64,000 nucleotides of DNA from Paracoccaceae bacterium (GTDB taxonomy: Bacteria > Pseudomonadota > Alphaproteobacteria > Rhodobacterales > Rhodobacteraceae), in assembly GCA_002708925.1 (NCBI GenBank), contig PAPN01000053.1, positions 62,001-126,000 of the forward strand, given 5' to 3'. The notes under the pieces are model-generated. The model was not told the origin of the DNA. It searched no databases and saw only the letters and a program-made list of their open reading frames with translations. The position numbers and the translations under genes are program-made. Shown piece by piece: positions 5,187 to 56,921 of this stretch; the first letter of the stretch is position 1, and each line of letters opens with the position of its first letter.

Positions 5187-5268
5187 GGGGGTCTCCTGAG
5201 TTCGCGATTGCGGGCAGGGTAGAACAGTGCGCGGGCAGGGGAAAGGCCGCGTCGCGTGGAATTCCGCA

Positions 5269-13144: not shown

Positions 13145-13212
13145 GCAGGTCCGTGTTCTGATGTTTGTCGTCAGGTAAACGCAGCGGGGTGAATGCGCAA
13201 GCGGCGGGCGTG

Positions 13213-13242
13213 AAAAGGCCGCGGACAAGGCTGCCCGCGGCC
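13213..13242 (-). terminator. Rho-independent terminator after the DUF2125 gene
   Basis: A perfect 8-bp stem, GGCCGCGG at 13217-13224 and CCGCGGCC at 13235-13242, with a ten-base loop. In the minus-strand direction it is followed by four T residues. It lies 20 bases beyond the DUF2125 stop and ahead of pmbA. Confidence 0.82.
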
Positions 13243-13261
13243 CCGAGTGCCTAAGTTCGGG

Positions 13262-37608: not shown

Positions 37609-37685
37609 GGTCCCGTGGCTCAACTGGATAGAGCAGCCCCCTCCTAAGGGGCAGGTTGCAGGTTCGAATCCTGCCGGGGTCGCCA
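37609..37685 (+). tRNA. tRNA-Arg (anticodon CCT)
   Basis: A full cloverleaf of 77 bases including an encoded CCA. The acceptor arms are GGTCCCG/CGGGGTC (two wobble pairs), the D stem GCTC/GAGC, the anticodon stem GCCCC/GGGGC with loop CTCCTAA, and the T arm GCAGG-TTCGAAT-CCTGC. Anticodon CCT reads the arginine codon AGG. Its 3' end is the attachment site of the island that follows. Confidence 0.97.
37671..37685 (+). repeat. Attachment-site core, left copy (tRNA 3' end)
   Basis: CTGCCGGGGTCGCCA, the end of the T stem, acceptor and CCA of tRNA-Arg. The same 15 bases with one change (G to A) recur at 58276-58290. The integrase gene starts 83 bases further right. Together these define the left boundary of the integrated element. 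Confidence 0.8.
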
Positions 37686-37767: not shown

Positions 37768-38772
37768 TTAGGCAACCCCTACCAGCAACTTGACCATTCG
37801 TTCACGGTCAGCAGCGCGCGTATAGCGCTCTACTTCAGAAAGGCTCATATGCCCAGCCATTGCCGCAATCTGGTGAGTGGTCGCGTCATTTTCAGCCCAA
37901 TAAATGCAGAAGGCTTTGCGTAGGCCATGAAGGCGAGAAGCCATCCCAGCCTCTCGTGCCGCGTCGCCAAACTCATTGCCCAAGCTTGTGGCCTTGAAGG
38001 GCTTACCAGCACTGGTAAGGATAAAGGCGGGAGCAATATCTGGGGTGCGATTGATAGCGGCTCGGAGTTCAGCCGTAAGCGGCACACGCGCGATGACCCC
38101 ACTTTTCTGGCGCTCATAAACTAACAGATCGCCCTTGATGTTCTTTCGGCTTAGTTTGGCTAGATCGGTGCGAGCTGCGCCAGTATATAAACCCAAATCA
38201 AAAATCAGGCGTTCACGAGTGCCCACTGGCCAGCGCTTTTGGAAGGCTGCAATGTCTTCAGCGTCGGCGACAGGAAAGCCTTTAATCTTCGGTTTATCCA
38301 ACTCGATCCCGACTAGAGGATTTTTGCGGATGAAACCCAAGCGACGGAGGTGTTCAAAGACCGGCTTGAGCGCTTTGTACTCGTTTATCGCACCATGCCC
38401 GCCCTTGGCATACAGGGCACGTTCTACAACTTCGCCTGTGATCGTTTTGACCGGGCGCGCGCCCTGCGTCTTGCGGTAACGCGCAAAGATCGCAGAGCGG
38501 GCCGAGCGTGTGCCGTCCGCATACTTTACCCACCTCTTATTACCTGAGGTGTAAAGGTCCAGCGCCCACGCAAATGTTCCCGCTTCAGGGGTCTCGGTAT
38601 CCGGTGGCATTTCCTGCCAACGCGCGTGTTCCGCCGCCCATGCGGCTAAGACCTTGGGGTCTTTTGGGTGCAGTCCATGGACACCTAGAGACCGCTCTAC
38701 ATCGCCGCGACGATACGTGTGAAACCAACGCCCACGCCGCAGTTTAGAGCGCAGATAAGGTAATTTCTTCAT
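37768..38772 (-). CDS. int: Tyrosine integrase of the island
   Basis: A 334-residue site-specific recombinase. The catalytic set can be read: Arg201 (TGAARTDL), the box H282-x-x-R285 (LHGLRKAF), His308 (AGHMS) and nucleophile Tyr317 (EVERYTRA). The N-terminal part contains an AP2/core-binding region (KKLPYLRSKLRRGRWFHTYRRGD, in parts). The start at 38772 is decided by GGAGATGCGGC upstream and an ATGA overlap with the preceding small gene. It reads toward the tRNA, as usual for tRNA-inserted elements. Confidence 0.93.
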   Translation of the reverse strand: MKKLPYLRSKLRRGRWFHTYRRGDVERSLGVHGLHPKDPKVLAAWAAEHARWQEMPPDTETPEAGTFAWALDLYTSGNKRWVKYADGTRSARSAIFARYRKTQGARPVKTITGEVVERALYAKGGHGAINEYKALKPVFEHLRRLGFIRKNPLVGIELDKPKIKGFPVADAEDIAAFQKRWPVGTRERLIFDLGLYTGAARTDLAKLSRKNIKGDLLVYERQKSGVIARVPLTAELRAAINRTPDIAPAFILTSAGKPFKATSLGNEFGDAAREAGMASRLHGLRKAFCIYWAENDATTHQIAAMAGHMSLSEVERYTRAADRERMVKLLVGVA

Positions 38773-38960
38773 GCCGCATCTCCTGAGAAGGGCTGCCCTT
38801 CCCATTCATGGCTTGCTTCGTCACTATCAGGATAGTCAAAGATTACGCCCTCAGGCCCCACGCCCTTGATGCGCACACCAGGGCACAGTTCGCGAGCAAC
38901 CTTGTAGGCCTCTTTGATCTGGCGCTCTGTTGGCATGGACGGGGATCGAGGGCTTGGCAT
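38769..38960 (-). CDS. Small protein upstream of the integrase
   Basis: A 63-residue acidic protein whose last codon overlaps the integrase start (ATGA), so it is part of the integrase transcript. The visible core is MPTERQIKEAYKVARELCPG followed by VRIKGVGPEGVIFDYPDSDEA. Small proteins of this kind often precede integrases in alphaproteobacterial elements. No function is known. The ATG at 38936 could be the real start. Confidence 0.6.
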   Translation of the reverse strand: MPSPRSPSMPTERQIKEAYKVARELCPGVRIKGVGPEGVIFDYPDSDEASHEWEGQPFSGDAA

Positions 38961-39397: not shown

Positions 39398-40051
39398 ATG
39401 GATCGAAGCCAATTTTTAGATCAGTTTAACAGAGAAGCGAGGCGCGAGCGCAGTCCCCAACACCGAGCAGCCCGAATCAAACGGGACAATGCACGCGCAA
39501 ATCAAGCTGTCGCGGAAAGGATACGTTTCAAACGCACTCAACAGCTGCGAGCCAGCAGAAAAAACTTGTGTATAGCTCAAGGTCTAAGAAAATGTCGCGA
39601 GCTGCGAGGCATGTCACGTGACGAATTTGCGCAGGCAATGGGCATTACCAGACGAGCATTGTACAATTATGAGACTGGGCTACGTAGTGTTCCGGGCGAG
39701 CTGATTGAAAAAATCGCAAAAAACGGTGACTTAGAGCTCCACGATATTCTCGGGACCAAATTTGAAAACCCACCTACCGAACGACGTAAGTCAGATGCAA
39801 CTCTCGCTATTCGGATCTACAAAAATCTGAAGTTTGAATTCGCTGAAGCCAGCAATTCCGAGGTCTCGCATATTTCTGCCGACGATACTGACATGCAACG
39901 CGTTGCCGCGGACGCTGCCGCTGCTTGGTCTCACACCGCAAAAGTCACCGAAAAGAGCATTGCCAAACTCACCAAACGCCTAGCTGCACAGTTGGCTGAC
40001 GACTACGCCCTGACAGATCTCGCCAACAGCTGGCATCTCGAGAACGATTAG
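39398..40051 (+). CDS. XRE-family transcriptional regulator
   Basis: A 217-residue protein. A basic N-terminal stretch of about 60 residues (REARRERSPQHRAARIKRD) precedes a helix-turn-helix: LRKCRELRGMSRDEFAQAMG, then ITRRALYNYETGLRSVPGEL. The C-terminal part is helical with no known domain. The start at 39398 (MDRSQFLDQF) is used; an ATG at 39371 is also in frame. A palindrome lies upstream. It is probably the island's controller. Confidence 0.8.
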   Translation: MDRSQFLDQFNREARRERSPQHRAARIKRDNARANQAVAERIRFKRTQQLRASRKNLCIAQGLRKCRELRGMSRDEFAQAMGITRRALYNYETGLRSVPGELIEKIAKNGDLELHDILGTKFENPPTERRKSDATLAIRIYKNLKFEFAEASNSEVSHISADDTDMQRVAADAAAAWSHTAKVTEKSIAKLTKRLAAQLADDYALTDLANSWHLEND

Positions 40052-40065
40052 TCCGGCAGCGGCTG

Positions 40066-40326
40066 TTAAGTATCATTTGCTAAGAGGGCGTTCATCCGTT
40101 CAAACCTCGCAATGGGCACCAGCGCAAATCGTCGTCCTCTTTCGTCGGCAAAGAGGACATTCTGATTCTCTGCAATCCGCAAATACGCATCAAAGTTATC
40201 CAGTAGCTTTCCGATCGAGATATCCACGTCGGCTTGCCGCACAATATCGTTTAGGTTGAACGCTAAGTTGAGAAAATTCGGCGCAATCCTATTTGCTCGA
40301 CTCGCTTTCCTTGTAATTTCGTGCAA
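40066..40326 (-). CDS. Small protein, antitoxin-like pattern at its end
   Basis: An 86-residue protein, no known family with certainty. The last part, VLFADERGRRFALVPIARFE, resembles the end of Phd/YefM antitoxins (RG-x-x-x-A-L-V-P-x-x-x-F-E). The first part (ITRKASRANRIAPNFLNLAF) is basic. No toxin gene is next to it. It is convergent with the XRE gene and divergent from the radical-SAM cluster. Low confidence in the assignment, moderate in the gene. Confidence 0.45.
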   Translation of the reverse strand: MHEITRKASRANRIAPNFLNLAFNLNDIVRQADVDISIGKLLDNFDAYLRIAENQNVLFADERGRRFALVPIARFERMNALLANDT

Positions 40327-40367
40327 GCTTCAGGTGAGCACATGTGAAAAATTCAGCGGGGGAAAAA

Positions 40368-40847
40368 ATGCAAAATTCTGAAGACAGCTTGGGTCTCGTA
40401 ATGAGCGCTGATTTGCAAGCAAGACAAGCTGGAATGGACACAGCCTACTACGACACGAATTCCTCTGAAGTTCATGTTTTGAATGCGACTGCGTCTGCCA
40501 TTTTTTCACATGTTACACCTGATCGTTCAATCAAGGAGATCGCACTCAATATCACGCTGGGGTTCTCTGAGGTTGGAGCCGCAGCCGACGTTGAGAGCGA
40601 CGTCGTTTGGCTAGTTCAAGAGCTAAAACGAAGGAAGATGCTTGTGGAACCAAGCAAGGCGACCGAAAAGCAGAAGAAAGAGGCAGTGCTCACTGAGTAT
40701 TCCATGAGTGAAGTCCCATGCGCCTACTTCAGGCCCGTTATTGCGACTTACTCGCTTGAAGAGTTGCGTGAAATGTACTCGTCCGGCAGATCTGGGTCAG
40801 TAAAATTTGGTGATACATGGAATCCAGATATTGGAACAATTGCGTAA
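40368..40847 (+). CDS. PqqD/RRE-like protein with precursor-like tail
   Basis: A 159-residue protein. Residues about 12-94 match the PqqD/RiPP recognition element fold: SEVHVLNATASAIFSHVTPD, RSIKEIALNITLGF and VVWLVQELKRRKML. After a charged linker, the tail from 112 contains C118-A-Y120-F-R-P123-V-I125, then TYSLEELREMY and an FGDTWNPDIGTIA end. This resembles a leader motif of the YxxPxL type plus a short aromatic core. A protein fusing recognition domain and substrate is inferred. The ATG at 40368 has GGGGGAA upstream. It is coupled to the two radical-SAM genes. Confidence 0.65.
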   Translation: MQNSEDSLGLVMSADLQARQAGMDTAYYDTNSSEVHVLNATASAIFSHVTPDRSIKEIALNITLGFSEVGAAADVESDVVWLVQELKRRKMLVEPSKATEKQKKEAVLTEYSMSEVPCAYFRPVIATYSLEELREMYSSGRSGSVKFGDTWNPDIGTIA

Positions 40848-42171
40848 TGAGACGACAGGCTCTGCTGAGGATCTACGACGGGTCTATAATTCGATCGCTA
40901 ATTACTGCGATGCTGAATCCAACGACCCCCTAGAAGTAGCTATTGCCAGAAGCCTTAAGCGAACCAAAGCGGCCTTATGTGATGTTGCGTTGCTCGATTT
41001 CAATGATCAGGCGATGCCGCAAGCCGGTTCTAACGTAAGTACTGTACTTCTGAAACCCGTGGGTGACATGTGCAATATGGCGTGTTCCTATTGTTACGAA
41101 AGGGAGCGTCTCAGATTTTCCCATCAGAAGAAGATGCGGCTCGAAGACATGCGGCGTATTGTAGAAAACCTGATGTGTGACGGAAGCAATGTTCAAGAGA
41201 TCTTCCTTCATGGAGGTGAACCGCTGCTTGCCGGGATCGAGTTCTTTGAAGCGCTTGTAAATGAAGTAAATAGTCGATTTGGCGAAGGAAAAATCTCATT
41301 TGGAGTTCAATCAAACGCTACGTTGATTAACGACGAATGGATCGAATTTTTTCATCGTCATGAATTTAGGGTCGGCGTCAGCATCGATGGAGATTCGAGT
41401 ATCCATGATCGGCATCGAGTTTTTCCGAATGGCAATGGATCATTCAATGCAGTTCGAGAAAACATAAGTAAGCTTACAGGAAGGGTTAGCAACGTAGGGG
41501 CAATTGCCGTTGTAACCAAACGGACAATGCAAGAACGAAATTCTGCAGCAAGAATTTTTGAAGCACTTTCTGAGTTAGGGATCCAATACATAGATGTGCA
41601 TCCTGCGCTGACAGTTCATGACGTTGCTGGGAGCGCAGCGAACGACAATCCGAGTCCTCGTGATTTTGCAAGCTTCATGGGTGACTTGTTGAGCGTTTGG
41701 AGGTGCAGTCAAGATACTAGAGTTCGTGTCCGAAACATCGAAAATGTTCTTGAAAACTTGAGTGTCGTTCCATCTGACACTTGCTATAGTTCAGGTCGAT
41801 GCGGTCAGATCCTAGGGATTGAGCCAGACGGTAGAGTGGCTCCATGCACCCGGCCCTTTAGTAAGCACTCTATTCTTGGGAACGCACTAGAAGATTCAAT
41901 TTTTGCAATAGAGCGTGGCAGAGCAAACAAAGAATTTCTTGACCAAGAAGCGCGTGGCCGTAGTAAAACAAAAGGCTGCGAATGGCACTCTTTGTGCGGT
42001 CAAGGGAACTGCCCGCACGAGAGAATACGAAAAGACATCCAAGATGTGAGCGGGAGGCACATATATTGCACTTGCGATAGTCTTGAACCAGATGAAGGCT
42101 TCCCCGGCTTTTTTCGCGCTCTTAGCACCCATCTAACTTCGTTGTCACGTAAACTGAGTCCGTTGATTTGA
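40807..42171 (+). CDS. Radical SAM/SPASM enzyme
   Basis: A 454-residue iron-sulfur enzyme. The radical SAM cluster motif CNMACSYC gives Cys89, Cys93 and Cys96, followed by HGGEPLL at 135-141. The C-terminal SPASM region has Cys at about 326, 332, 347, 391, 397, 402, 421 and 423, enough for auxiliary clusters. The family matures ribosomal peptides or proteins. There is no ATG near the start; TTG 40807 gives an overlap of 41 bases with the preceding gene, and TTG 40831 or 40840 are alternatives. The next gene starts at its stop. Codon use and GC are island-like. Confidence 0.85.
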   Translation: MVIHGIQILEQLRNETTGSAEDLRRVYNSIANYCDAESNDPLEVAIARSLKRTKAALCDVALLDFNDQAMPQAGSNVSTVLLKPVGDMCNMACSYCYERERLRFSHQKKMRLEDMRRIVENLMCDGSNVQEIFLHGGEPLLAGIEFFEALVNEVNSRFGEGKISFGVQSNATLINDEWIEFFHRHEFRVGVSIDGDSSIHDRHRVFPNGNGSFNAVRENISKLTGRVSNVGAIAVVTKRTMQERNSAARIFEALSELGIQYIDVHPALTVHDVAGSAANDNPSPRDFASFMGDLLSVWRCSQDTRVRVRNIENVLENLSVVPSDTCYSSGRCGQILGIEPDGRVAPCTRPFSKHSILGNALEDSIFAIERGRANKEFLDQEARGRSKTKGCEWHSLCGQGNCPHERIRKDIQDVSGRHIYCTCDSLEPDEGFPGFFRALSTHLTSLSRKLSPLI

Positions 42172-43535
42172 CACAGTTTGTTTTCCACCATGTCCTAATT
42201 AATCAGACTGGCGCCCCTCATTCTCCGCCGATTGGTGTCCTTGGGCTAATCGCTCGGCTCGAAGATGAAGGTATGACGGCGGGCTTTTGCCAATTCAACC
42301 ACAACCGAGGCGAAGAGCTCGACCCCGGCAATCTGGCAAAACAAATATTGAAGCAACCGGGTAACGTGGGCATCAGTACGATGATTAACTCCCTGCCGTT
42401 TGTGCTTATGGCAGCTCGTTTGGTGAAGGCAACCGACCCTAGTCGCGTGATTGTTCTGGGCGGAGCTGGAATGAACGGTATCTCTAAAAAAATAGTAGAG
42501 TGTTTTGAGCAGGTTGACTTCGTTTGTTTTGGTGAGGGCGAGGAACAGGTGGTGCCGCTCTTAAAGTTCTTGTGTGGCTCTGAGATGCAATCTCAGATAC
42601 CCGCTGTATCTTTTAGAGTATCAGGCGGAGTTAATACCAATGCAGCAGTACCAAGAGTAGTTGAACTCGATCGGCTGCCTCTCCCCCGGTTCGATTTGAT
42701 CTCTCTTCAAGACTATCAACATGTTCCAGTAATGGGATCTAGAGGATGTCCGTTGAAATGCCAGTTTTGTGACGTTGCACCTAGCTGGGGAAGGCGGAAT
42801 ACGTCTCGCTCTCCCGGACACGTCGTAAACCAGTTAAAGCAACTCTCTGAGAGCTACGGCGTAAGGCGCGTGACGTTTGTTGATGACTTATTCACCTTAA
42901 ACAAAAGATGGGTGAAGGAATTCTGTCATTCGATGCGAAGTGAAGCTTGCGATGTCTCATGGAGGGCTAACTCGCACGTAAATTTCTTGTCGGAAGAGCT
43001 GCTTGAGACGATGGTGCTAGCAGGTTGCGAGGGTCTTTTTTTTGGTGTCGAGTCTGGATCAGATAAGATACTTTCCGATATTCAGAAGAACTTTTCTGCC
43101 AAGAAGGCGCAAACCATAGTCTCTTTGGCGCAAAATTATGTAAAGGTGTCCGTGAATTTGATGTGGGGCTTTCCAAGTGAAACCATCACCACTATGGAGC
43201 AGACTTTAGCATTGAGAAGTGAGTTTGAGAGAAACTCGGTTGAGACCAGTCTTGTGATGCTCGCACCGCTCAGTCTTGCCCCTATTTTAAGGGGTTCGCA
43301 GATAATTTTTAGTGAGGATGTACCGAACATCTTCTTGCAGGACTATCATGAGCTCGCTGTTGATTATCGTCGGGAATGGAAAGAAATGATTGTGTCGCAC
43401 CCCGGTATTTTTGGTGCATTCTATCACTTCAACAACAAGTACATGGACGATCTCATTGATCGGGTTGAGGCGGATAGCCTTATGGGATTTATCTTGAAGT
43501 CCTCTGAAAATGGCGAAGCGTGGAAGCGGCTTTAG
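42168..43535 (+). CDS. B12-binding-type radical SAM enzyme
   Basis: A 455-residue enzyme with an N-terminal cobalamin-binding-like domain (TGAPHSPPIGVLGLIARLED, VIVLGGAGMNG, CFGEGEEQVVPLL) and a radical SAM domain with CPLKCQFC at 194-201, then VTFVDDLFTLN and GVESGSDKIL. Family members methylate unactivated carbons or build ring systems; the B12 motif DxHxxG is not evident, so cobalamin binding is uncertain. TTG 42168 is the start, overlapping the stop of the SPASM gene (TTGA). It is the third gene of the cluster. Confidence 0.82.
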   Translation: MTQFVFHHVLINQTGAPHSPPIGVLGLIARLEDEGMTAGFCQFNHNRGEELDPGNLAKQILKQPGNVGISTMINSLPFVLMAARLVKATDPSRVIVLGGAGMNGISKKIVECFEQVDFVCFGEGEEQVVPLLKFLCGSEMQSQIPAVSFRVSGGVNTNAAVPRVVELDRLPLPRFDLISLQDYQHVPVMGSRGCPLKCQFCDVAPSWGRRNTSRSPGHVVNQLKQLSESYGVRRVTFVDDLFTLNKRWVKEFCHSMRSEACDVSWRANSHVNFLSEELLETMVLAGCEGLFFGVESGSDKILSDIQKNFSAKKAQTIVSLAQNYVKVSVNLMWGFPSETITTMEQTLALRSEFERNSVETSLVMLAPLSLAPILRGSQIIFSEDVPNIFLQDYHELAVDYRREWKEMIVSHPGIFGAFYHFNNKYMDDLIDRVEADSLMGFILKSSENGEAWKRL

Positions 43536-43618
43536 ATCGCGGACAGTTAACCTCACAAGCTGTCGAGCTCTTAGCAGTAGGGATGCCCGAAAGACAAACC
43601 TACCTAGCTGGGAGAAGT

Positions 43619-43672
43619 GCTGCCGAATGGCAGCTACCGTTTCAGTGCCGCAATAACGACCCTTTTTGCGGC
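43619..43672. repeat. Two inverted repeats between radical-SAM and recombinase genes
   Basis: GCTGCC-GAAT-GGCAGC at 43619-43634 is a 6-bp hairpin. GCCGCAA at 43647-43653 pairs with TTGCGGC at 43666-43672 over a 12-base gap. No T-run follows the second, so a plain terminator is not obvious. They may be a recombination or operator site of the serine recombinase downstream, or a transcript-ending structure. Confidence 0.4.
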
Positions 43673-43747
43673 AATTTCCGCGTTGCCACTAAGCCATTGA
43701 TTCCAATTGTTCTGGACTGCTGCAAAAACCTCGTGCAAAACGATTCT

Positions 43748-44311
43748 ATGAAAATCGGCTACGCAAGAGTGTCTACAGAAGAACAGAACCTTGATTTACA
43801 GATCGAGGCGCTGACCGAAGCCGGATGTGATCGTATCATTACAGATCAGGCTATAAGCGGAGTAACAGCCGCCGAGGGCCGAACCGGTTTTTCAGAGGCA
43901 ATGGAGCTTTTAGACGACGGTGATGTTCTTGTGGTTTGGAAGCTGGACAGGATAGGGCGGTCCATTGCTGACCTCGTACACCTTTTGAAGCTCTTCGGGG
44001 ATCGCGGCATAGAATTCCGCAGCCTTACGGACGGGATTGACACGACGACAGCAGGGGGCCGACTGGTGTTTCACATTATGGGAGCCTTGGCTGAGTTTGA
44101 ACGGGACCTGATCCAGGAACGCACCAAGGCGGGACTTGCAGCCGCCAGGAAGCGCGGCAAACGGCTTGGCCGACCTCCTGCGCTGACACCCGCACAAATC
44201 CAGCACGCGAAGGCCGCCATATCGGCAAGGCGAGAGACAGTTTCGGGCATGGCGGAAATACTTGGGGTGAACCGCAGCACCATCCAGCGCGCCATCGGGG
44301 CAATCCGGTGA
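43748..44311 (+). CDS. Serine recombinase/invertase (resolvase family)
   Basis: A 187-residue site-specific recombinase of the Hin/Tn3 resolvase type. GYARVSTEEQNLDLQ carries catalytic Ser9 and Arg7, VWKLDRIGRS and ALAEFERDLIQERTKAGL are the other family motifs, and a C-terminal helix-turn-helix (GMAEILGVNRSTIQRAIGAIR) binds DNA. The frame is open from 43520 upstream, but that part has no family likeness and carries inverted repeats. The stop overlaps the next gene by four bases (ATGA), so it is part of the ABC-3C transcript. Confidence 0.92.
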   Translation: MKIGYARVSTEEQNLDLQIEALTEAGCDRIITDQAISGVTAAEGRTGFSEAMELLDDGDVLVVWKLDRIGRSIADLVHLLKLFGDRGIEFRSLTDGIDTTTAGGRLVFHIMGALAEFERDLIQERTKAGLAAARKRGKRLGRPPALTPAQIQHAKAAISARRETVSGMAEILGVNRSTIQRAIGAIR

Positions 44312-45222
44312 TGGACGAGCTTCAGAGACATCTTTTCCAGCTCAAGTTCCGCATCGCCTTCCTTGAGAGCCAAGGGAAGGCGTTTGAGGACCTGTTCTCC
44401 CGGATTATGGGTCATGCCTTCGCAAGCGACTTCCAGGCTGTGCGGCCATACGGGAACAAGGGTGATCTGAAGTGCGACGGCTATCGGGTTAGCGATAAGA
44501 CCGTGTTTCAGTGCTATGCACCGAAAACAACTAAGCTCGATAAGCTCCAGGCGAAGGTCGACGAAGATTTCAACGGCGCAGTCGCGCATTGGGGGTCGCG
44601 CATGGAGCGCTGGACCTTTGTGCATAATGACGACGATGGCCTTCCAGCCGATGTGATTCAGCAGTTGATAGACCTTGGCAAAGCTCACTCGAAAGTGTCG
44701 CTCGGCCAGATGAGCTACCCGGAGATCTTCGACATCACCATGGCACTGACGGCTTCACAACTCGAAGACCTGTTCGGTCCGGCACCGACGCAACGCACGC
44801 TTGCACAGCTTGATTTCGAAGCTCTGCGACCGGTCGTCATGCTGATCCAACGGATTGATCCGGATGAAAACCCGTCCTTAGCAGCACCGTCCGCGTCAAA
44901 GCTGAAAGCGAACGATTTGTCCGACGATGCAGCAGAACTCTTGCGTCAGGGGCGGCGTAGAGAACGACTGGTAGAGGACTTTTTCAACCAGTTTCCGAAT
45001 CCGGACTTTGGCGAAGAGATCGCTCAGGGCTTCCGTGATCGCTACCAGGACCTGAAACAACAAGGCCACTCTGCAGATCATATTTTCATGGAGCTTCAGC
45101 ACTTCGCGGGCGGAATGAGCGGTACACCGCAGCATCAAGCCGCTGTTTTGGCCGTCATGTCGTATTTCTTCGAGCGTTGCGACATTTTTGAGGACTATGT
45201 GGAAGCGGAGGCCGACACATGA
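44308..45222 (+). CDS. ABC-3C system component with endonuclease-like N-terminus
   Basis: A 304-residue protein of the ABC-three-component (ABC-3C) type. The N-terminal region reads FLESQGKAFEDLFSRIMGHA, then PYGNKGDLKCDGYRVSDKTV and FQCYAP, with Glu27, Asp53 and Asp57 as possible metal-site residues of a restriction-endonuclease-like fold. The C-terminus (about 200-300) is helical and typical of ABC-3C C-terminal domains. It overlaps the recombinase before it and the middle component after it by four bases each. Its target is unknown; conflict or defence function is proposed from comparative genomics. Confidence 0.72.
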   Translation: MMDELQRHLFQLKFRIAFLESQGKAFEDLFSRIMGHAFASDFQAVRPYGNKGDLKCDGYRVSDKTVFQCYAPKTTKLDKLQAKVDEDFNGAVAHWGSRMERWTFVHNDDDGLPADVIQQLIDLGKAHSKVSLGQMSYPEIFDITMALTASQLEDLFGPAPTQRTLAQLDFEALRPVVMLIQRIDPDENPSLAAPSASKLKANDLSDDAAELLRQGRRRERLVEDFFNQFPNPDFGEEIAQGFRDRYQDLKQQGHSADHIFMELQHFAGGMSGTPQHQAAVLAVMSYFFERCDIFEDYVEAEADT

Positions 45223-45464
45223 TCTTGCCAACCAAACATATCCGTCCCGAACGCGCGCTCCTGACCGTGGGTGCCGATATACTGGCGTGCCTAAAAGGAC
45301 CGATGACGGTATCTCGGGTTTGGGACGAAGTGCGTAGGCAACGTGGCGAAGCAGTGGGGGTGGCACCTATTAATTACGATTGGTTCATTCTCGCCCTTGA
45401 TCTCCTGTTTATCACAAAGGCGGTAAGCTTTGAAAACGGCGTGCTTCGCAAGGGCGCGCCATGA
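45219..45464 (+). CDS. ABC-3C middle component
   Basis: An 81-residue winged-helix-like protein: RPERALLTVGADILACLKGP, then MTVSRVWDEVRRQRGEAVGV and APINYDWFILALDLLFITKA. It matches the small middle components that link the effector and the ATPase of ABC-3C systems, probably type 6 or related. Its start overlaps the previous gene and its stop overlaps the ATPase gene (four bases each), a tightly coupled trio. Confidence 0.75.
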   Translation: MILPTKHIRPERALLTVGADILACLKGPMTVSRVWDEVRRQRGEAVGVAPINYDWFILALDLLFITKAVSFENGVLRKGAP

Positions 45465-47221
45465 TCCACAATCTCACAAGTGATTTGGAGAGCTTCAAAA
45501 CTCTCACCTTCGGTCCAGGTCTTAACATTCTCTTGGCTGAGAAGACGGCGCAATCAACGGATCGGCAGACGCGAAACGGAGCAGGGAAAACTAGTTTTGT
45601 CGAACTGGTCCATTTTATCTATGGGGGCAACGCCAAGCCTGACAGCATCTTTCGCTCCGATGAACTGACATCGCACACCTTCGAAATGCAGACCGATATC
45701 AGCGGGCACACGATCTCTGCCGCGCGGTCGGGCAAGAAACCTGCGCGCATCAGACTTCAGGGCGAGACGGAGCACTGGCCGATCAAACCCGAACTCGACA
45801 ACAAGACCGGCGACCTGGTGCTTTCGAACACAAACTGGCGAGCAGATCTGGGCGCTTTGCTGTTCGATCTGCCGACGGATCCGGATGCTATCAGCCGGTT
45901 CGGTCCAACATTCCGTTCACTCTTTTCTTATTTTGCGCGCCGACAAGGCAGTGGCGGGTTCGTTCAGCCAACTCAGCAGTCTGGGCCTCAGCAGAACTGG
46001 GATCAACAGGTAGCGATTTCTTACCTTCTTGGGCTGGATGCCAGCATCGCACAGCAGTTTCAGGAGGCGCGCGCCCAAGAGAGCGCAATGGCGGAATTGC
46101 GCAAGGCGGCAAAGAAAGGTGATTTGGGTGAATTTTACGGAAACTCCGCCGACTTCAGAACACGTTTAGCGATCGCAGAAACCAAGGCTCGTCAGCTGAA
46201 ACGGCAACTCGCTGAATTTAATGTTGTTCCAGAATATACTTCGATGGAGCAGGAAGCGTCGGAGATTACTCGTTCTATTTCCACAATCAACGATGACAAC
46301 TTGATTGATAGAGAGCTGGTTTTGCAGCTCCAAACAGCGTTGGAGAGCGAAGAGCCACCTGCAATTGCCAACGTCGAAAAGCTGTACAACGAAGCTGGTG
46401 TTGTGCTTCCAGAAACTGTTGGTCGCAGATTTGAAGAAGTTTCTGAGTTTCATGAGGCGATCATTCGCAACCGCCAAGCTCATCTTTCTGCTGAGATCAC
46501 CGCTGCCGAGGCGCGGATTACGGAACGGGAAGCGCAGCGGCTAGAACTGGATCGCCGTCGAGGCCAGCTAATGGGCATTCTCCAATCAGGGGGTGCGTTG
46601 GAACACTACTCACGCCTTCAGGAAGAAGCCGGGCGCACCGAGGCTAAAGTGGAGGCGCTGCGTCAACAGCTGGAGATTGCCGAGCGGATCGAAAGCACGA
46701 AAGTCCAACTCGACATCGAGCGGGCCCGTCTGCAGCAAGCACTTCAAGCCGACCTGCACGAGCGTAACGACATCACGAATGATGCCATCGTGATTTTCGA
46801 AGAATTGTCCAACTCGCTCTACGAGCAGGCTGGGCACCTGACAATTGCTGCGACTTCGAACGGCCCAACGTTTGAAGTCGCCATCGATGCACAACGAAGC
46901 AAGGGCATCAACAGTATGCAGATTTTCTGTTTCGATCTGATGCTGGCCGAACTGACGACGAAACGGGGTATTGGACCAGGCTTTTTGATTCACGATAGCC
47001 ATCTTTTTGATGGCGTTGATGAGAGACAGGTGGCCAAAGCCCTGCAACTGGGGGCTAATCATGCGGAAAGAGTTGGTTTCCAATATATCGTGACCATGAA
47101 CTCAGACGCACTGCCCGTGGACGGGTTCCAAGACGGTTTCGATGTGCGCCAGTACGTCAATCCGACTCGTCTCACAGACGAAGAAGAAACAGGTGGTCTG
47201 TTTGGTCTGAGATTTGGATAA
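45461..47221 (+). CDS. ABC-3C ATPase (DUF2326, SMC/Rad50-like)
   Basis: A 586-residue ABC ATPase. Walker A is NGAGKTS at residues 39-45, the coiled-coil region runs about 190-430 (for example ARITEREAQRLELDRRRGQLMG), and the C-terminal half has FCFDLMLAEL and GFLIHDSHLFDG, a Walker-B-like strand. The arrangement is SMC/Rad50-like with DUF2326. In ABC-3C systems the ATPase probably senses foreign DNA or replication structures and triggers the effector. Third gene of the trio. Confidence 0.82.
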   Translation: MIHNLTSDLESFKTLTFGPGLNILLAEKTAQSTDRQTRNGAGKTSFVELVHFIYGGNAKPDSIFRSDELTSHTFEMQTDISGHTISAARSGKKPARIRLQGETEHWPIKPELDNKTGDLVLSNTNWRADLGALLFDLPTDPDAISRFGPTFRSLFSYFARRQGSGGFVQPTQQSGPQQNWDQQVAISYLLGLDASIAQQFQEARAQESAMAELRKAAKKGDLGEFYGNSADFRTRLAIAETKARQLKRQLAEFNVVPEYTSMEQEASEITRSISTINDDNLIDRELVLQLQTALESEEPPAIANVEKLYNEAGVVLPETVGRRFEEVSEFHEAIIRNRQAHLSAEITAAEARITEREAQRLELDRRRGQLMGILQSGGALEHYSRLQEEAGRTEAKVEALRQQLEIAERIESTKVQLDIERARLQQALQADLHERNDITNDAIVIFEELSNSLYEQAGHLTIAATSNGPTFEVAIDAQRSKGINSMQIFCFDLMLAELTTKRGIGPGFLIHDSHLFDGVDERQVAKALQLGANHAERVGFQYIVTMNSDALPVDGFQDGFDVRQYVNPTRLTDEEETGGLFGLRFG

Positions 47222-48307: not shown

Positions 48308-48922
48308 TTGGTTGCAAATATAATTTCTCAGGAGCGCCTGACAAAGTACCTAAGAGAGGCTGGCCACGATCAGCAGCGAGCACTAGCGCTTTATGGATGG
48401 AACATCCAACTGAGCGAAGCATTTTTCCCGGTTTTGAGCGCTTCTGAGGTGTGCCTTCGCAATACCATCTGCACACAATTGATCGCCCTGTATGGGCAAA
48501 CGTGGTGGGATGACCAAGCTTTTCTCCTTCAGATCAAGAAGAATGGAACGCGGATCGTCAAGACAGCCCGTGACAAACTTAGAACCCATGGTCCCGTCAC
48601 CTCGGGGGGAATGACAGCTGAACTCAACTTCGGTTTTTGGGTCAACATGCTCTTGCCAAGACACGAACCGGTGTTTTGGCCGAACCTGAATGCTGCCTTT
48701 CCAGATCTGCCACCGACAGTCACCTATGACGCGCTCTATAAGAGATGCGATGATGTCCGTGAGTTTCGGAACCGGATATTCCACCATGAACCGATCATGC
48801 ACCGCAACATTACCAAAGAATACAGTCAGATCATGGAGCTCATCGGTTGGCTGAGCCCGGATAAGGCCAAGTGGATCAAGCCATATTCACGGGTGATGAC
48901 AGTGGCACGACAAAAACCTTAA
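48308..48922 (+). CDS. Abi-like (abortive infection) HEPN protein
   Basis: A 204-residue protein of the Abi/HEPN type. The first family segment is SEAFFPVLSASEVCLRNTI (the pattern LExxLRN), and the catalytic-type motif is R154-N-R-I-F-H159 (Rx4H) in REFRNRIFHHEPI, followed by a helical end. Such proteins are RNases that act in anti-phage defence or dormancy. TTG 48308 is the start and no ATG precedes the conserved part. The structured leader ends 17 bases upstream. Confidence 0.75.
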   Translation: MVANIISQERLTKYLREAGHDQQRALALYGWNIQLSEAFFPVLSASEVCLRNTICTQLIALYGQTWWDDQAFLLQIKKNGTRIVKTARDKLRTHGPVTSGGMTAELNFGFWVNMLLPRHEPVFWPNLNAAFPDLPPTVTYDALYKRCDDVREFRNRIFHHEPIMHRNITKEYSQIMELIGWLSPDKAKWIKPYSRVMTVARQKP

Positions 48923-50581: not shown

Positions 50582-50623
50582 ACGTGAGTTATGAAATGAC
50601 TCGTGTCAGTTCAAAACTCACGT
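50582..50623 (+). promoter_or_regulatory. 42-base dyad upstream of the ParA-like gene
   Basis: Arms ACGTGAGTT (50582-50590) and AACTCACGT (50615-50623) and inner arms TGAA/TTCA and TGAC/GTCA share one centre, giving 17 of 19 pairs around a four-base TCGT turn. The ribosome-binding site AGGAGG lies just after it. It may be a parS-like or repressor site, or a leader hairpin limiting translation of the ParA-like gene. Confidence 0.65.
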
Positions 50624-50637
50624 ACAGGAGGAAACCC

Positions 50638-51390
50638 ATGCAAACCATCACCTTCTTTGCAAACAAAGGCGGCTCAGGCCGTACGGTTTCCACAATGGCG
50701 CTTGCATCGGGCTTCCTCGCTCAAGGTAAGCGGGTTGGTGTGATGGACTGTAGCGATCTGGCGGGCTGCGAAGCTTCACCGCTACGTGCTTGGCTACAGC
50801 AGATCTTGAGATGTGAACTTCACCGACAGCAATTGAAGCTAATTGAATGTGAGACACGTGAGGAAGTTGAGGACGGCGCAGCTGGAGCGCAAGCACAAGG
50901 TATCGACGTCTTGTTGATCGATACCTCGGCGCGAACTTATGAACCCCAACTTGTCGCGCTGGACATGGCCGATTTGATCATCGCGCCCGCGATTGGCCCG
51001 CTTGAAGCTAAGCATATCTCGGATAGTGTCGCCAAATACCTCGACACGCCCAAGCAATTTTATGGCCTAGTAATCGGCAGTCACAACGGATTGCCTATAG
51101 CCGCGAAGACACGCAAAGCCTTCGGCTTTCATCATGTTCTCAAATCTGAACTCCCCTGGGCCGAGGCACTATCCGAACAGATGTTGAATGGTGACATCGA
51201 ACAATTCGTTGCGACGCTTGCGTGCAAGCCCGACGAACCTGGCTTTGCACGTTTCCGCGCAGCACAGGCCGCATGGAATGCCGTGCAACGCCTAACCTTT
51301 GAGGTCGAGTGGGCGTTCGATGGCTATCGACTCGAAGAACTCGACGGCGACCAATCCATAGCTCACTTTGGAAGAAAGGCAGTTGCTTGA
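50638..51390 (+). CDS. ParA/MinD-like ATPase with altered Walker A
   Basis: A 250-residue deviant-Walker ATPase. The loop reads FFANKGGSGRTVST: the signature lysine of the family is present (Lys10) but the P-loop lysine is Arg15. The Walker-B-like strand is VLLIDTSARTYEP. The C-terminal part is mostly helical. Partition or VirC1-type roles are possible. No ParB is next to it. The ATG at 50638 has a perfect AGGAGG. The dyad sits directly upstream. Confidence 0.8.
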   Translation: MQTITFFANKGGSGRTVSTMALASGFLAQGKRVGVMDCSDLAGCEASPLRAWLQQILRCELHRQQLKLIECETREEVEDGAAGAQAQGIDVLLIDTSARTYEPQLVALDMADLIIAPAIGPLEAKHISDSVAKYLDTPKQFYGLVIGSHNGLPIAAKTRKAFGFHHVLKSELPWAEALSEQMLNGDIEQFVATLACKPDEPGFARFRAAQAAWNAVQRLTFEVEWAFDGYRLEELDGDQSIAHFGRKAVA

Positions 51391-51423
51391 TCTGACACCG
51401 CGACTACCAAGCACTCACCTAGA

Positions 51424-52509
51424 TCACGAGGCGTCTGGCCCGCGAAGTTTGAACTCCTTTGCAGGTTCTGAAAGTCTTGCTTCATGAGCTGTTTTTATCT
51501 CGGCAAGACTTTCTCTACCGAAGAGGCTCCTCAAGACGGCCCATAACAGATTGAGAGCGCGTTTGAGGGCCTTTTCACGCTTTGCCGCTGCCGTTGCCTT
51601 CTCCTCGGCTTTCTGGAGCCGCTCGGAAGCTCTCTCTGTGACCATCTCGTCAATTCGTCGTTTGACGCGTTCCCATGCGCGCTCCTCCGCCTCCAAGTAG
51701 GCCTCTGAGCGATGTTCTTCATCCAACGCCCATCTCTGGTCAATTTCGGCCTGTATGATGGTCTCAGCGTCTTTGACAGCTTCCTGACGTGCTTTCTCTG
51801 CCAGTTCTTTATAGAGATCTGGTGGTACATGTTCACGGCCAGTCTCTTTTTTGGGTTTGCCGCGCTTCAGTCGATTGTCGAGGTTGTTCTGAGCCCACTT
51901 CGCCCAATCTGTTTGTTGTGCAGTCCAACCATTCGAAACCCCGTGCTTACCAGCCAACTCGTTGTTGGCTTTCCTTACCGAAATCGAAAGCTTGCTAGAT
52001 CCGCTTTTGTGGTGCTCTGTTCTGATAGGGCTGGCTAGGATATCGACGATTCCGCTTCCAGCTTCATCGGTGTCATAGCGCACGGCCCAAACGGCTCCCT
52101 CACCCATCCAGCTTTCAGCCCATAGCTTGGCTTCAGCAATGAGCTGCTGAACGCGAACGTTGGCGAGGTCTCGAGGATCTCCCGTCTCTTCGAGCCACTC
52201 AGGAGACACGCAGACAAGCGTGTGAACTCCAAGCGCAGCATTCTTCCGCTCACTCTTCACGCCCATCTGCTTTTTGTGCTTGCGGTAGGCCTTGGAGTAG
52301 TCAGCGCCGCCGCCCTCGAGGCCATCACCCATCTTGGACCAGAAATAGTTGGCTGTGTGGCTGCGGCCCTCTACCTGCCGAGCTTGAGAGGTCGCATCCT
52401 TCCGCTTGGCGTGGCTCTCTGCCGAGATGATATCTGAAAAGCTACCCAGATGGTTCTTATTGCTTTCTCGCCTTGGATTGCGAACGAATGCATACATGGG
52501 ATCAGGCAT
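51424..52509 (-). CDS. Mob/Pre-like mobilisation or plasmid recombination protein
   Basis: A 361-residue protein. The N-terminal region has SFSDIISAESHAKRKDATSQ and NYFWSKMGDGLEGGGADYSK, then WAVRYDTDEAGSGIVDILAS and RTEHHKSGSSKLSISVRKAN, similar to the MobV/Pre fold (plasmid mobilisation or recombination). The C-terminal third is charged coiled coil (ERASERLQKAEEKATAAAKR). The canonical HxDE-x-x-PHxH motif is not visible, replaced by RYDTDEAG, so activity is uncertain. The start at 52509 is used. Confidence 0.6.
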   Translation of the reverse strand: MPDPMYAFVRNPRRESNKNHLGSFSDIISAESHAKRKDATSQARQVEGRSHTANYFWSKMGDGLEGGGADYSKAYRKHKKQMGVKSERKNAALGVHTLVCVSPEWLEETGDPRDLANVRVQQLIAEAKLWAESWMGEGAVWAVRYDTDEAGSGIVDILASPIRTEHHKSGSSKLSISVRKANNELAGKHGVSNGWTAQQTDWAKWAQNNLDNRLKRGKPKKETGREHVPPDLYKELAEKARQEAVKDAETIIQAEIDQRWALDEEHRSEAYLEAEERAWERVKRRIDEMVTERASERLQKAEEKATAAAKREKALKRALNLLWAVLRSLFGRESLAEIKTAHEARLSEPAKEFKLRGPDAS

Positions 52510-52812
52510 AGTTCTATTAGCCTTCTTTGGTTCAATAGTTAGCACACATACGGTTGGGCGAAATTCCTGTCGGATTTTCGCCGCGCTCCGCTCAACCAGT
52601 GTGCCCTCCGGGGGCCTCCGATCTTGCAACTTTCAGCCACGATCTGCGCGGATCTTCGATCCTTGCGAGCCGTCCCGACGGACGGCGCAAAACGCACTCC
52701 TCCCCTGCCTTGTGGCGGGCGATGTCGGTGTGAATTTTGCGGGGAGCCTAGACAGCCCGGAGACCTCAAATATCGGAGGGCTGGCCAGGCAAGGATGCAG
52801 GCTCCAAGTTGG
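52510..52812. other. Gene-free stretch with two adjacent hairpins, possible oriT
   Basis: No coding region is supported in these 303 bases. Two hairpins lie side by side: GGATC-TTC-GATCC at 52650-52662 and GCCGTCC-CGAC-GGACGGC at 52669-52686. The position directly upstream of the Mob/Pre-like gene fits a transfer origin or a leader region. No nick-site consensus was recognised. Confidence 0.4.
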
Positions 52813-53319
52813 TTAGAGAAGCACGCCATCCCGCCTCTCCTTTAGTTGGCTGAGCAGACGTCTCTCGGCATCTTCGAGCGCGGCCTTCTCAATCGGATGT
52901 GCGGTTGCCATAATCGTCAGAATGGTACGCCCATCTAGTTTCGGAGCGGCCAAGCGGCGGGCGACAACGCGCGCAATATTTGGAAAGTCAGAGGGCTCGT
53001 AAAGCTGATTGAAATCTTCTTGCGCGAACCGCTCTCGGTATTGTTGCAGTTGGCGGCGTCGGCGGGCAATTTCCAGCTCTGTTGGTTGTCTGTAGGCGGG
53101 TTCTCCCAAGACATAAAAACGCGACGTCGTTCGCGCCCATTGTTTGCAATGATCGAGGACAAGAAGGGGCGACGTGAATATCCGTTGATCGTCCAAGACT
53201 GGGTGTCCTGTCACTTCACCGCGCAAACGCGTGGATCTGGAATCCCGGATTTTTGCCCATCGCTCTAACCGAGGAGCATTCGCCAGGTCTGCGGACGTTG
53301 GATTGAATTTGCTGTTCAT
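52813..53319 (-). CDS. DUF6634-like hypothetical protein
   Basis: A 168-residue soluble protein. The reading VTGHPVLDDQRIFTSPLLVL, then DHCKQWARTTSRFYVLGEPA resembles small alphaproteobacterial plasmid/element proteins grouped as DUF6634. The rest is charged and helical (RRRRQLQQYRERFAQEDFNQ). No catalytic motif is seen. Its start overlaps the stop of the zinc-ribbon gene by four bases. Confidence 0.6.
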   Translation of the reverse strand: MNSKFNPTSADLANAPRLERWAKIRDSRSTRLRGEVTGHPVLDDQRIFTSPLLVLDHCKQWARTTSRFYVLGEPAYRQPTELEIARRRRQLQQYRERFAQEDFNQLYEPSDFPNIARVVARRLAAPKLDGRTILTIMATAHPIEKAALEDAERRLLSQLKERRDGVLL

Positions 53320-53516
53320 CGCTCGATCACCCGGCCTACGCCTTTCACCCCCGCGTTGTCGGCCTCAGTGCGACCGCACTCGCACCATGCCACACCACGC
53401 GTCTCGCCCTTGGGCATGTACTTTGTTGTGTGTTGCCAGCTATTGGCGATGGTTCCGCAATGAGGGCACCTGACCTGGAACGGGCTGGTTGTCGGAGTTC
53501 GCTGTTTTTTGGGCAT
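53316..53516 (-). CDS. Small zinc-ribbon protein
   Basis: A 66-residue protein with two cysteine pairs: VRCPHCGTIANSWQ and VAWCECGRTEADNA, giving a zinc ribbon. The N-terminus is basic (MPKKQRTPTTSPF). It is coupled to the DUF6634-like gene by a four-base overlap. Small zinc ribbons of this type are common in mobile elements; role unknown. Confidence 0.62.
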   Translation of the reverse strand: MPKKQRTPTTSPFQVRCPHCGTIANSWQHTTKYMPKGETRGVAWCECGRTEADNAGVKGVGRVIER

Positions 53517-53535
53517 GATCAGTTTCCCTGTCTGG

Positions 53536-53853
53536 CTATCGGCTCTTCGGCTTGCGTAGAGTGGAAATCACAAACATCGCCAGGACCAATAGCGCCGCAT
53601 AGCTGGTAGTGATGGACCAAACGATGATGACTGTTGACGCCAGATAGAATCCAATGCCAACACCGCTGCCTGGAATGTCATCTACCGCGATACTCAGCAG
53701 AAAACCCCAGGCCAGCAGAGACAGGACGAGCGCCCAGGCCGCACCGAGATACCGCCCGCCAAGCCTTTCGGCCCATCCCCTTTTCAACGCGGTTAAGGGA
53801 CGAAAGAACGTGGTTGCCATATCGAACATCAAGTTATCGAGAAACGTGGTCAT
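53536..53853 (-). CDS. Small inner-membrane protein
   Basis: A 105-residue protein with two transmembrane segments, GAAWALVLSLLAWGFLLSIA and GFYLASTVIIVWSITTSYAA plus LLVLAMFVIS, and charged flanks (LTALKRGWAERLGGRYL). No family is recognised. It starts at 53853 inside the stop of the lipoprotein gene (ATGA), so it belongs to the dotA-like transcript and may be a small partner of that protein. Confidence 0.65.
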   Translation of the reverse strand: MTTFLDNLMFDMATTFFRPLTALKRGWAERLGGRYLGAAWALVLSLLAWGFLLSIAVDDIPGSGVGIGFYLASTVIIVWSITTSYAALLVLAMFVISTLRKPKSR

Positions 53854-54221
53854 TGCGCGACCTCCTCGACAAGCCAACCGGCATCACCTTTGAAGACATG
53901 TCCGCGAATATCCTTGATGCCTGCCTGCACCACAAAGCCATCATCGCGGAGCAGGTCGAAATTGTAGATGCACAGATAACCAACATTGGTTGGATGCTCT
54001 TCGCATGAGGTCAGCTCCACGTTGCGGGCGCGCATCTTAAGCGAGAGCTGCAAGCCAGCGGGCATGTCTACGATTGAACCGTATTGCGCCAAAGCGGCTG
54101 TTTTATCCGCCTCGATGCCGTTCAAATAGCCTTGCTCAATATCCGCAGCAGTTGGGCTGTCATCTTTGCATCCGGCCAGAACCGACAATGCCAAAATTGC
54201 AATTGTAGTCTTTTTCATCAT
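53850..54221 (-). CDS. Lipoprotein in the DotA/TraY transcript
   Basis: A 123-residue lipoprotein: signal MMKKTTIAILALSVLAGC with lipidated Cys18, then KDDSPTAADIEQGYLNG. Two more cysteines (TSCEEHP and YLCIYNF) may pair. The pattern recalls small lipoproteins encoded beside conjugation-type membrane proteins. It overlaps the DotA/TraY gene stop by one base and the next membrane gene start by four. Function unknown. Confidence 0.7.
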   Translation of the reverse strand: MMKKTTIAILALSVLAGCKDDSPTAADIEQGYLNGIEADKTAALAQYGSIVDMPAGLQLSLKMRARNVELTSCEEHPTNVGYLCIYNFDLLRDDGFVVQAGIKDIRGHVFKGDAGWLVEEVAQ

Positions 54222-56410: not shown

Positions 56411-56921
56411 GTTGCCTCCGTAGTGCGACAAACACCGCTGCTCGATGGTATTGGGGGAGGTGTTTGTAGCCTGCGTCCAAAACTCTCGATGCGGTGCTTC
56501 GAGTAAGCGGCCCGGTTACGATCAAGAGTGCGGCCTGTGATGGGAATTCTGGCAAAGCTCTTCCGCTGTAACGGCGGGTGTCAAAAAGCAGCGCGTCTAC
56601 CGGAGGCGCGTCGACAGTTTCATCCATCACCACGACATTTGTGCGTTGGTTGAGTTGCAGAGTCTTGCGTGCAAGGCGCAGGCACATCGCATCCGGGTCA
56701 GTGCAGAAAATCTGGTGTGTCTTGGGAGCAAGGTATGCGGTTCTCAGCCCGAAATTACAGCCGAATTCCGCTACGGATTTTCCCGACAACAACGGAGCGA
56801 GCCAATCGTTTTCCGACAAGCATTCCCCAAAGCTCAACTCGGCAGAGATTTGTGGATGCGATGCAGCCTCAGCTGGAACTTTGAGTGAGCAGAAAGTGTT
56901 TTGTGCTTGTAGCGCGATCAT
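56397..56921 (-). CDS. SAM-dependent methyltransferase-like protein
   Basis: A 174-residue protein with a class I methyltransferase-like nucleotide site: SVAEFGCNFGLRTAYLAPKT at 49-68 (glycine loop at 53-58) and FCTDPDAM at 72-79. The FGCNFG variant resembles FkbM-type sequences. The rest is small for a full methyltransferase, so the protein may be truncated or a divergent enzyme. It overlaps the repC gene (four bases) and the DotA/TraY start (14 bases), so the three are co-transcribed. Confidence 0.6.
   Translation of the reverse strand: MIALQAQNTFCSLKVPAEAASHPQISAELSFGECLSENDWLAPLLSGKSVAEFGCNFGLRTAYLAPKTHQIFCTDPDAMCLRLARKTLQLNQRTNVVVMDETVDAPPVDALLFDTRRYSGRALPEFPSQAALLIVTGPLTRSTASRVLDAGYKHLPQYHRAAVFVALRRQHGFQ

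Follow-up and report, generated by a model that had tools for sequence, protein, structure and literature searches.

A PqqD-type recognition domain with a leader-like tail encoded beside two radical SAM enzymes in a Paracoccaceae bacterium

The three-gene locus

A 64,000-nucleotide stretch of DNA from a Paracoccaceae bacterium (assembly GCA_002708925.1, contig PAPN01000053.1, positions 62,001 to 126,000; hereafter the window, which supplies the coordinates) carries three consecutive genes that encode a small protein, P1, in which a recognition domain is followed by a long tail, and two different radical S-adenosylmethionine (SAM) enzymes, P2 and P3. The recognition domain is a RiPP recognition element (RRE; RiPP, ribosomally synthesized and post-translationally modified peptide), and the tail contains a motif of the type that lasso RREs recognize. 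An earlier note on this DNA had placed three open reading frames (ORFs) at 40368-43535, and their coordinates and sequences were correct. The genes are as follows.

40368..40847, plus strand: P1, RRE and tail, 159 amino acids (aa), proposed self-carrying precursor (ATG start after GCGGGGGAAAAA)
40840..42171, plus strand: P2, SPASM radical SAM enzyme (start TTG 40840; PF04055, PF13186)
42168..43535, plus strand: P3, compact B12-binding radical SAM enzyme, 455 aa (PF02310, PF04055)

The sequence ahead of the P1 start at ATG 40368, GCGGGGGAAAAA, is a purine-rich GGGGGA stretch. The start of P2 lies within P1, and the candidates TTG 40807, GTG 40810, TTG 40831 and TTG 40840 give overlaps of 8 to 41 bases, TTG 40840 being the most modest choice and TTG 40807 the longest reading. 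P3 starts at TTG 42168 and overlaps the P2 stop by 4 bases. Because the genes overlap at both junctions, P1/P2 and P2/P3, the sequence suggests that the three form one operon. Domain matches and start positions agree with the order described in the note, a SPASM enzyme and then a B12-type radical SAM enzyme with overlapping starts.

P1 contains an RRE

PF05402 matched the N-terminal part of P1 (residues 29-92) at 24.3 bits (cut-off 23.4, E 3.9e-5), and three NCBIfam PqqD-type models matched as well, each below its own cut-off. In the AlphaFold2 model of P1, strands at residues 16-21, 24-29 and 34-38 are followed by helices at 40-47, 55-65 and 72-88, in the order seen in solved RREs. A Foldseek search with this model gave TbiB1 with leader peptide as the top match (E 1.4e-3, no match reaching 0.001), lasso B1 with leader being also at the top. 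A structural aligner returned Z scores of 10.9 (6jx3_B), 10.4 (5v1u_A) and 10.3 (5v1v_A) over 84 to 86 residues at 2.0 to 2.4 Å; all three chains are lasso-type RREs solved together with leader peptides, the next row is a methyltransferase domain (8hkr_B, Z 8.5) and PqqD (5sxy) stands at Z 7.3. The first 94 residues of P1 are an RRE of the PqqD fold, as the earlier note had read from the sequence; the profile search and the structure prediction that it called for both returned this domain. Neither P2 nor P3 has a Pfam match to an RRE, and our own RRE profile gave −0.3 bits for P2 and −0.8 bits for P3, so P1 provides the sole recognition domain found in the cluster. Along P1, the following parts can be distinguished.

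40389..40649, plus strand: RRE fold, residues 8-94 (PF05402; AlphaFold2 model; 6jx3_B, Z 10.9 over residues 8-94)
40650..40724, plus strand: linker, residues 95-119 (model; residues 104-117 below 50 in predicted local distance difference test, pLDDT)
40725..40742, plus strand: YFRPVI, residues 120-125, lasso-type RRE recognition motif (sequence; PMC12710340, PMC13381572)
40740..40754, plus strand: predicted strand IATYS, residues 125-129 (model; block 121-130 with mean pLDDT 83)
40782..40844, plus strand: candidate core SGRSGSVKFGDTWNPDIGTIA, residues 139-159 (sequence; putative role)

A leader-like tail follows the RRE

The tail of P1 comprises 65 residues (95-159) and ends in KFGDTWNPDIGTIA; NCBIfam, Pfam, PADLOC and PHROG scans gave no family match for residues 95-159. 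YFRPVI, noticed earlier as a YxxPx-hydrophobic pattern, is an exact fit to [Y/W]xxPx[LVIFA] at residues 120-125 and coincides with the predicted tail strand. The recognition motif of lasso RREs is given as YxxP in one paper (PMC12710340) and as [Y/W]xxPx[L/V/I/F/A] in another (PMC13381572). By itself the motif is weak evidence, because shuffled P1 tails yield Y..P.[ILV] in 3.5% of cases; the looser [YF]..P.[ILV] arises in 5.5% of them, and in 2.1% of shuffles of the Kuenenia tail described below. In the model, the strand block is flanked by disorder on both sides, residues 141-159 falling below pLDDT 50, and a confident strand in the tail is what a tail bound in the RRE groove of its own protein would look like.

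Within the candidate core lie FGD (40806-40814) and WNP (40818-40826), both of which the earlier note had put forward as candidate sites of crosslinks and which may serve as such. FGD would match the aromatic-X-X pattern of cyclophane-type SPASM enzymes; WNP suits this pattern less, since its third residue is proline.

A tail is unusual among the PF05402 proteins examined. The family was matched in 44 of 142 genomes of the class, and the best match of each of 30 genomes was inspected, with domain ends estimated from the locus centre. At 28 of these 30 loci the protein ends at most 14 residues past the estimated domain end; L228 has 167 residues more, and at L235, which was mis-centred, the end that was read is that of the domain itself.

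A second RRE-plus-tail gene in Candidatus Kuenenia

An alignment of P3 with two plasmid relatives, run against genome contigs, found a locus of Candidatus Kuenenia hertensis (L088) as the best of 80 matches listed (E 2e-68, 31% identity). At this locus a 141-aa ORF (4782-5204) ending in ...RKRKSFEKPSVIVKDLSTALQNLDFQESVVSQYE, with the motif FEKPSV and a tail of about 34 residues, is followed by three genes for B12-binding radical SAM enzymes of the length of P3 and then by a HemN/HemW-like gene. The model of the 141-aa protein retrieves the same lasso RREs as P1 does (5v1v_A, E 1.8e-4), and the best NCBIfam match of the two Kuenenia B12 enzymes scanned is ApyD, as it is for P3. Genes of this RRE-tail type occur in 5 of the 62 genomes of that order; the other four genomes would, from the order to which they belong, also be those of anammox bacteria.

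Downstream of the gene we compared G385, G407, G405 and G417, the tail protein of G414 being identical to that of G405. In G385, G407 and G405 the gap to the next enzyme gene measures about 290 to 400 bases and is mostly unlike, and the genes on either side of it are alike; in G417 an insertion-sequence gene pair follows the RRE-tail gene instead. An ATG that overlaps the RRE-tail stop opens an ORF of 46 codons in G417, which stops at codon 6 in G385 and has 21 codons in G405 and 10 in G407; no small ORF behind the RRE-tail gene is intact in all four genomes. Over 35 residues, the G417 ORF (1917-2054 of L170) shares about 86% identity with the Kuenenia sequence that has the stop at codon 6.

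Four distinct copies from the order of Kuenenia were available for a comparison of change along the gene (L172 and L173 are identical, and one was dropped). The pooled ratio of non-synonymous to synonymous polymorphism (pN/pS) was 0.23 in the RRE, 0.53 in the tail and 1.1 after FEKPSV, which is itself unchanged. The changes are very few; faster change at the end of the tail than in the RRE is the direction that would be expected of a leader and a core.

P2 and P3 are SPASM and B12-binding radical SAM enzymes

P2 matches PF04055 with 64.5 bits and the SPASM domain PF13186 with 25.5 bits (cut-off 21.5), and has CxxxCxxC at residues 89-96 (counted from TTG 40807). Its top NCBIfam model is TIGR03942, anaerobic sulfatase maturase, at 231.7 bits (below the cut-off of 349.45), followed by DynA and then, among others, by DarW, PapB and DarE; the nearest solved chain, 4k37_A, is an anaerobic sulfatase maturase. 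A role of P2 as a sulfatase maturase was considered and rejected: TIGR03942 falls below its cut-off, and Pfam found no sulfatase among the three proteins and seven neighbouring ones, the set meant below wherever scanned neighbours are mentioned.

P3 matches PF02310 with 33.6 bits (cut-off 32.1) and PF04055 with 69.1 bits, and its CxxxCxxC at 194-201 supplies C194, C198 and C201. The best named match is the ApyD model NF050148, at 182.6 bits against a cut-off of 750. ApyD makes beta-methyltyrosine (PMC10635010), and PbsB, another B12-binding radical SAM enzyme, is part of a cluster responsible for crosslinks between ortho-tyrosines (PMC12257519). A tree of 31 rows placed P3 in a clade of 15 together with the first two Kuenenia enzymes (support 100/99); P3 sits on a long branch and its position within the clade is uncertain, and the third Kuenenia enzyme is not a member.

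Several members of this clade adjoin RiPP-type genes. L199 lies next to an Os1348-family NHLP protein (43.5 bits, cut-off 40), and L198 and L202 adjoin similar proteins at 29.2 and 23.2 bits, below that cut-off. L177, from G676, a genome of the same family as that of the window, adjoins a YcaO gene and a TfuA-like gene. At L177 (7786-11368) the YcaO gene, the P3-like B12 enzyme and the TfuA-like gene stand in one run, and no precursor was found there. The NHLP-type protein of L199 (11107-11757), beside its P3-clade enzyme, comes from a genome of the phylum of Kuenenia, and a second protein there (13048-14106) looks alike by eye.

Other B12 enzymes stand in different settings. L004 (2122-7906, a Sinorhizobium plasmid) and L008 (3062-9125, an IMG/VR contig) share a recurring gene set in which a QueA-like gene and a separate RRE are accompanied by a SPASM enzyme, a long ApyD-like enzyme and a diaminopimelate-decarboxylase-like gene; L004 was rejected as a counterpart of the P1 cluster, its layout being different and its RRE separate. 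At L181 (89-2848) a 483-aa ORF lies near two short ORFs that end in cysteine repeats, an arrangement that by eye resembles a further RiPP cluster.

At 1e-40, P2 found only itself among 385 genomes of the class, and P3 found itself and G676 among 292 genomes of the order. The A3 query found only itself among 398 genomes of the phylum at 1e-90, a threshold that was probably too strict; among 226 genomes of the phylum of Kuenenia at 1e-75 it matched 12 genomes, and 11 loci from 10 of these were examined. In plasmids, identity was below 32% in the 20 P3 and 20 P2 matches listed. P2 had only distant radical SAM matches in phage records (less than 30% identical among the 20 listed), and neither P2 nor P3 as a single query gave a confirmed match in viral contigs.

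A precursor with built-in recognition and its alternatives

We consider it probable, on balance, that P1 unites RRE, leader and core in a single chain and serves two enzymes that lack an RRE. P1 would then be a precursor with built-in recognition: a flexible linker would join its N-terminal RRE to a YxxP leader, and about 20 residues at the C-terminus would form the core. The YxxP segment would sit in the RRE groove, either of its own P1 molecule or of a neighbouring one, and P2 and P3 would dock on the RRE of P1 and act on the core, that is, on the last 20 or so residues: P2 might introduce a radical crosslink or a similar oxidation, and P3 a methylation or a crosslink via cobalamin chemistry. 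That an RRE is fused here to its own substrate had been the central suggestion of the earlier note, and it gains from the RRE, the YxxP motif and the disorder predicted at the end of the tail, from the fact that no other precursor ORF is evident beside the cluster, and from the second RRE-plus-tail gene, which lies beside relatives of P3. It does not extend to a fixed architecture: B12-binding radical SAM enzymes other than P3 adjoin RREs without a tail at L203, L004, L008 and L095. These are remote homologues, and they therefore count against a fixed architecture and not against the fusion in P1.

Besides these tail-less RREs, a number of findings weigh against our proposal. The P1 model was built from a seven-sequence alignment. 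Relatives of P1 were found in 1 of 385 genomes of the class, namely its own, in no plasmid and, by pattern, in no genome contig or viral contig searched. The match of the Kuenenia protein to PF05402 spans positions 3-67 of the 67 in the profile and, at 16.2 bits, is below the cut-off; an unrelated family does slightly better at 17.5 bits, likewise below its own cut-off; and the model of this protein leaves the tail unplaced, below pLDDT 50. The motif aside, the P1 and Kuenenia tails are unlike by eye. A SPASM gene lies upstream in L088 only; there is none in the stretches from G405 and G414, and the G407 contig starts just before the gene. Among 11 further P3-like loci of the phylum of Kuenenia, an RRE was found in L203 only, a P3-clade locus where a tail-less RRE-like gene lies directly upstream of the B12 enzyme; this match is weak (E 0.027 with our own profile, no NCBIfam match).

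P1 might instead be an ordinary stand-alone RRE whose tail, itself unmodified, acts as a docking arm or as a self-blocking pseudo-leader, the true precursor being encoded elsewhere in the genome. The tail-less RREs imply that a plain RRE can suffice for such enzymes, a YxxP strand bound in the groove of its own protein could act as an inhibitor, and the 46-codon ORF of G417, which overlaps the stop of the RRE-tail gene, could be, or have been, a separate peptide gene. Yet the other three genomes compared have that ORF only in an interrupted or short form, and beside the three-gene cluster no other precursor is evident: every ORF of at least 20 aa that overlaps 39950-40420 or 43480-43780 was judged by eye and none stood out. 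Nor does a pseudo-leader need some 20 residues beyond the motif; among the four distinct copies from the order of Kuenenia, these end residues vary more than the motif does. We regard a stand-alone RRE as unlikely, though a serious alternative. The absence of a peptidase or an exporter gene among the three proteins and their scanned neighbours tells against a released peptide and raises another alternative, in which the tail is modified and never released, and P1 acts whole, bearing a radical-made group or crosslink as a protein-borne cofactor or a modified effector. The candidate core does share its chain with a folded domain. RiPP clusters may, however, use host proteases for release, and some have no peptidase gene; moreover, an unreleased tail is a variant of the favoured reading and not its opposite. 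We hold it, too, to be unlikely, if only slightly more so.

The in-frame ATG 40704, just before the motif, would give a 47-aa peptide (MSEVPCAYFRPV...) of ordinary precursor size, so that one gene might yield two products, the full-length RRE protein and a free precursor. We keep this start as a minor point against a one-chain precursor, although it lacks a well-placed ribosome site: the nearest GAGG ends 20 bases upstream, too distant for the usual spacing. In the Kuenenia gene, moreover, the stretch ahead of the motif (residues 68 to 105) is free of start-like codons. Two products from one gene seem very improbable. A tail that is a functionless chance extension, left by a lost stop, a frameshift or a decaying gene, would fit the weak contrast in GC content between codon positions of the tail (0.48, 0.46 and 0.51) and the lack of a close P1 relative that would show selection on it. 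It accounts poorly for an exact recognition motif, a confident predicted strand at that very place and overlapping genes, and for a like arrangement in another phylum, in Kuenenia, and we think it improbable. The reading of P1 as RRE, leader and core in one chain is the one that we carry forward.

Genomic context

A tRNA-Arg gene at 37609-37685 is followed by a phage-type integrase gene at 37771-38805, and the GC content, 57 to 65% on the flanks, is only 46 to 57% from 38 to 58 kb; by these signs, the three-gene cluster is on a genomic island. An attR or other second att site of the island was looked for and not found. A ParA-like gene and a replication-protein gene at 50584-58006 (PHROG matches) suggest that the island is, or at one time was, plasmid-like. 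A Pfam scan of the three proteins and their seven neighbours revealed no lasso cyclase and no leader peptidase gene, and the organism's own genome (about 83% complete) yielded no second copy of the tail.

Immediately after the cluster, with a resolvase gene in between, come ABC-three-component-type genes (CTD10, DUF2326; 44308-47221), which match the candidate defence system PDC-M68 (546 bits for the second gene) and show weak similarity to LmuA/LmuB. The stretch 48308-48922 gives a partial match to the defence protein PD-T4-5 and a weak match to AbiD. A defence role for the three genes themselves was considered and rejected, PADLOC returning only generic matches (P2, pVip at 45 bits; P3, PDC-M51A at 47 bits; P1, none).

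Discussion

P1 resembles discrete RREs such as TbiB1, FusB1 and PqqD in fold, domain size and YxxP-type motif. In those systems, however, RRE and precursor are separate proteins, whereas P1 carries a leader motif and a candidate core after the RRE in one chain. The relation of P3 to aminopyruvatide biosynthesis is similarly partial: ApyD, which beta-methylates tyrosine in a RiPP context (PMC10635010), is the best NCBIfam match, but ApyD contains an RRE and has a model length of 645, whereas P3 has 455 aa, leaves the RRE to P1 and scores far below the cut-off of 750, and unlike in the ApyD cluster no MNIO, P450 or methyltransferase was found among the window neighbours scanned. P2 has its best matches among anaerobic sulfatase maturases and crosslinking SPASM enzymes (DynA, DarE, PapB and GrrM), but it scores below the curated cut-offs in all 25 families listed, and no sulfatase accompanies it among the neighbours scanned.

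Two other arrangements come close to what we propose for P1. In borosins of types I-III the substrate is likewise linked to a component that takes part in its maturation (PMC8429565), which in their case is a methyltransferase enzyme, whereas in P1 the candidate core is fused to a recognition domain only. Precursors with structured leaders (NHLP/proteusin and the borosin binding domain) likewise place a folded N-terminal domain before the core, and NHLP-type genes adjoin members of the P3 clade; their folded leader is not an RRE, whereas that of P1 is.

As the earlier note had stated, RREs are described as separate proteins or as fusions to enzymes (PMC7470986, PMC12710340 and PMC10858898), and none of the binding models listed in PMC10858898 joins the RRE to the precursor. 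Fusions of substrate and enzyme (borosins, PMC8429565) and folded leaders that are not RREs (PMC12455567) are known. An RRE fused to a precursor was not found in the literature searched, from which subscription journals are mostly absent and which was accessible in part, and the same body of literature yielded no account of anammox RiPPs of this kind. Of the nine possible novel RRE clusters in one published set, three had probable precursors and a further four had candidates predicted by RODEO (PMC7470986).

The look-alike in Kuenenia suggests that this is a genuine route to modified peptides, and one that may not have been described before. More tentatively, P1 may represent a self-presenting RiPP class, in which an RRE joined to its leader and core draws several RRE-less radical SAM enzymes to itself and retains the modified tail as a protein-borne group; such a class, the existence of which we think possible but doubtful, would have arisen or spread in at least two phyla, here on a mobile island beside defence genes. 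RiPP mining looks for a small precursor protein of its own in the vicinity of an RRE or a radical SAM enzyme. If the RRE protein doubles as the precursor, clusters of this kind would seem to lack one and would be overlooked, and a natural fusion of RRE and substrate would offer a self-contained means of directing radical SAM enzymes to peptides of choice.

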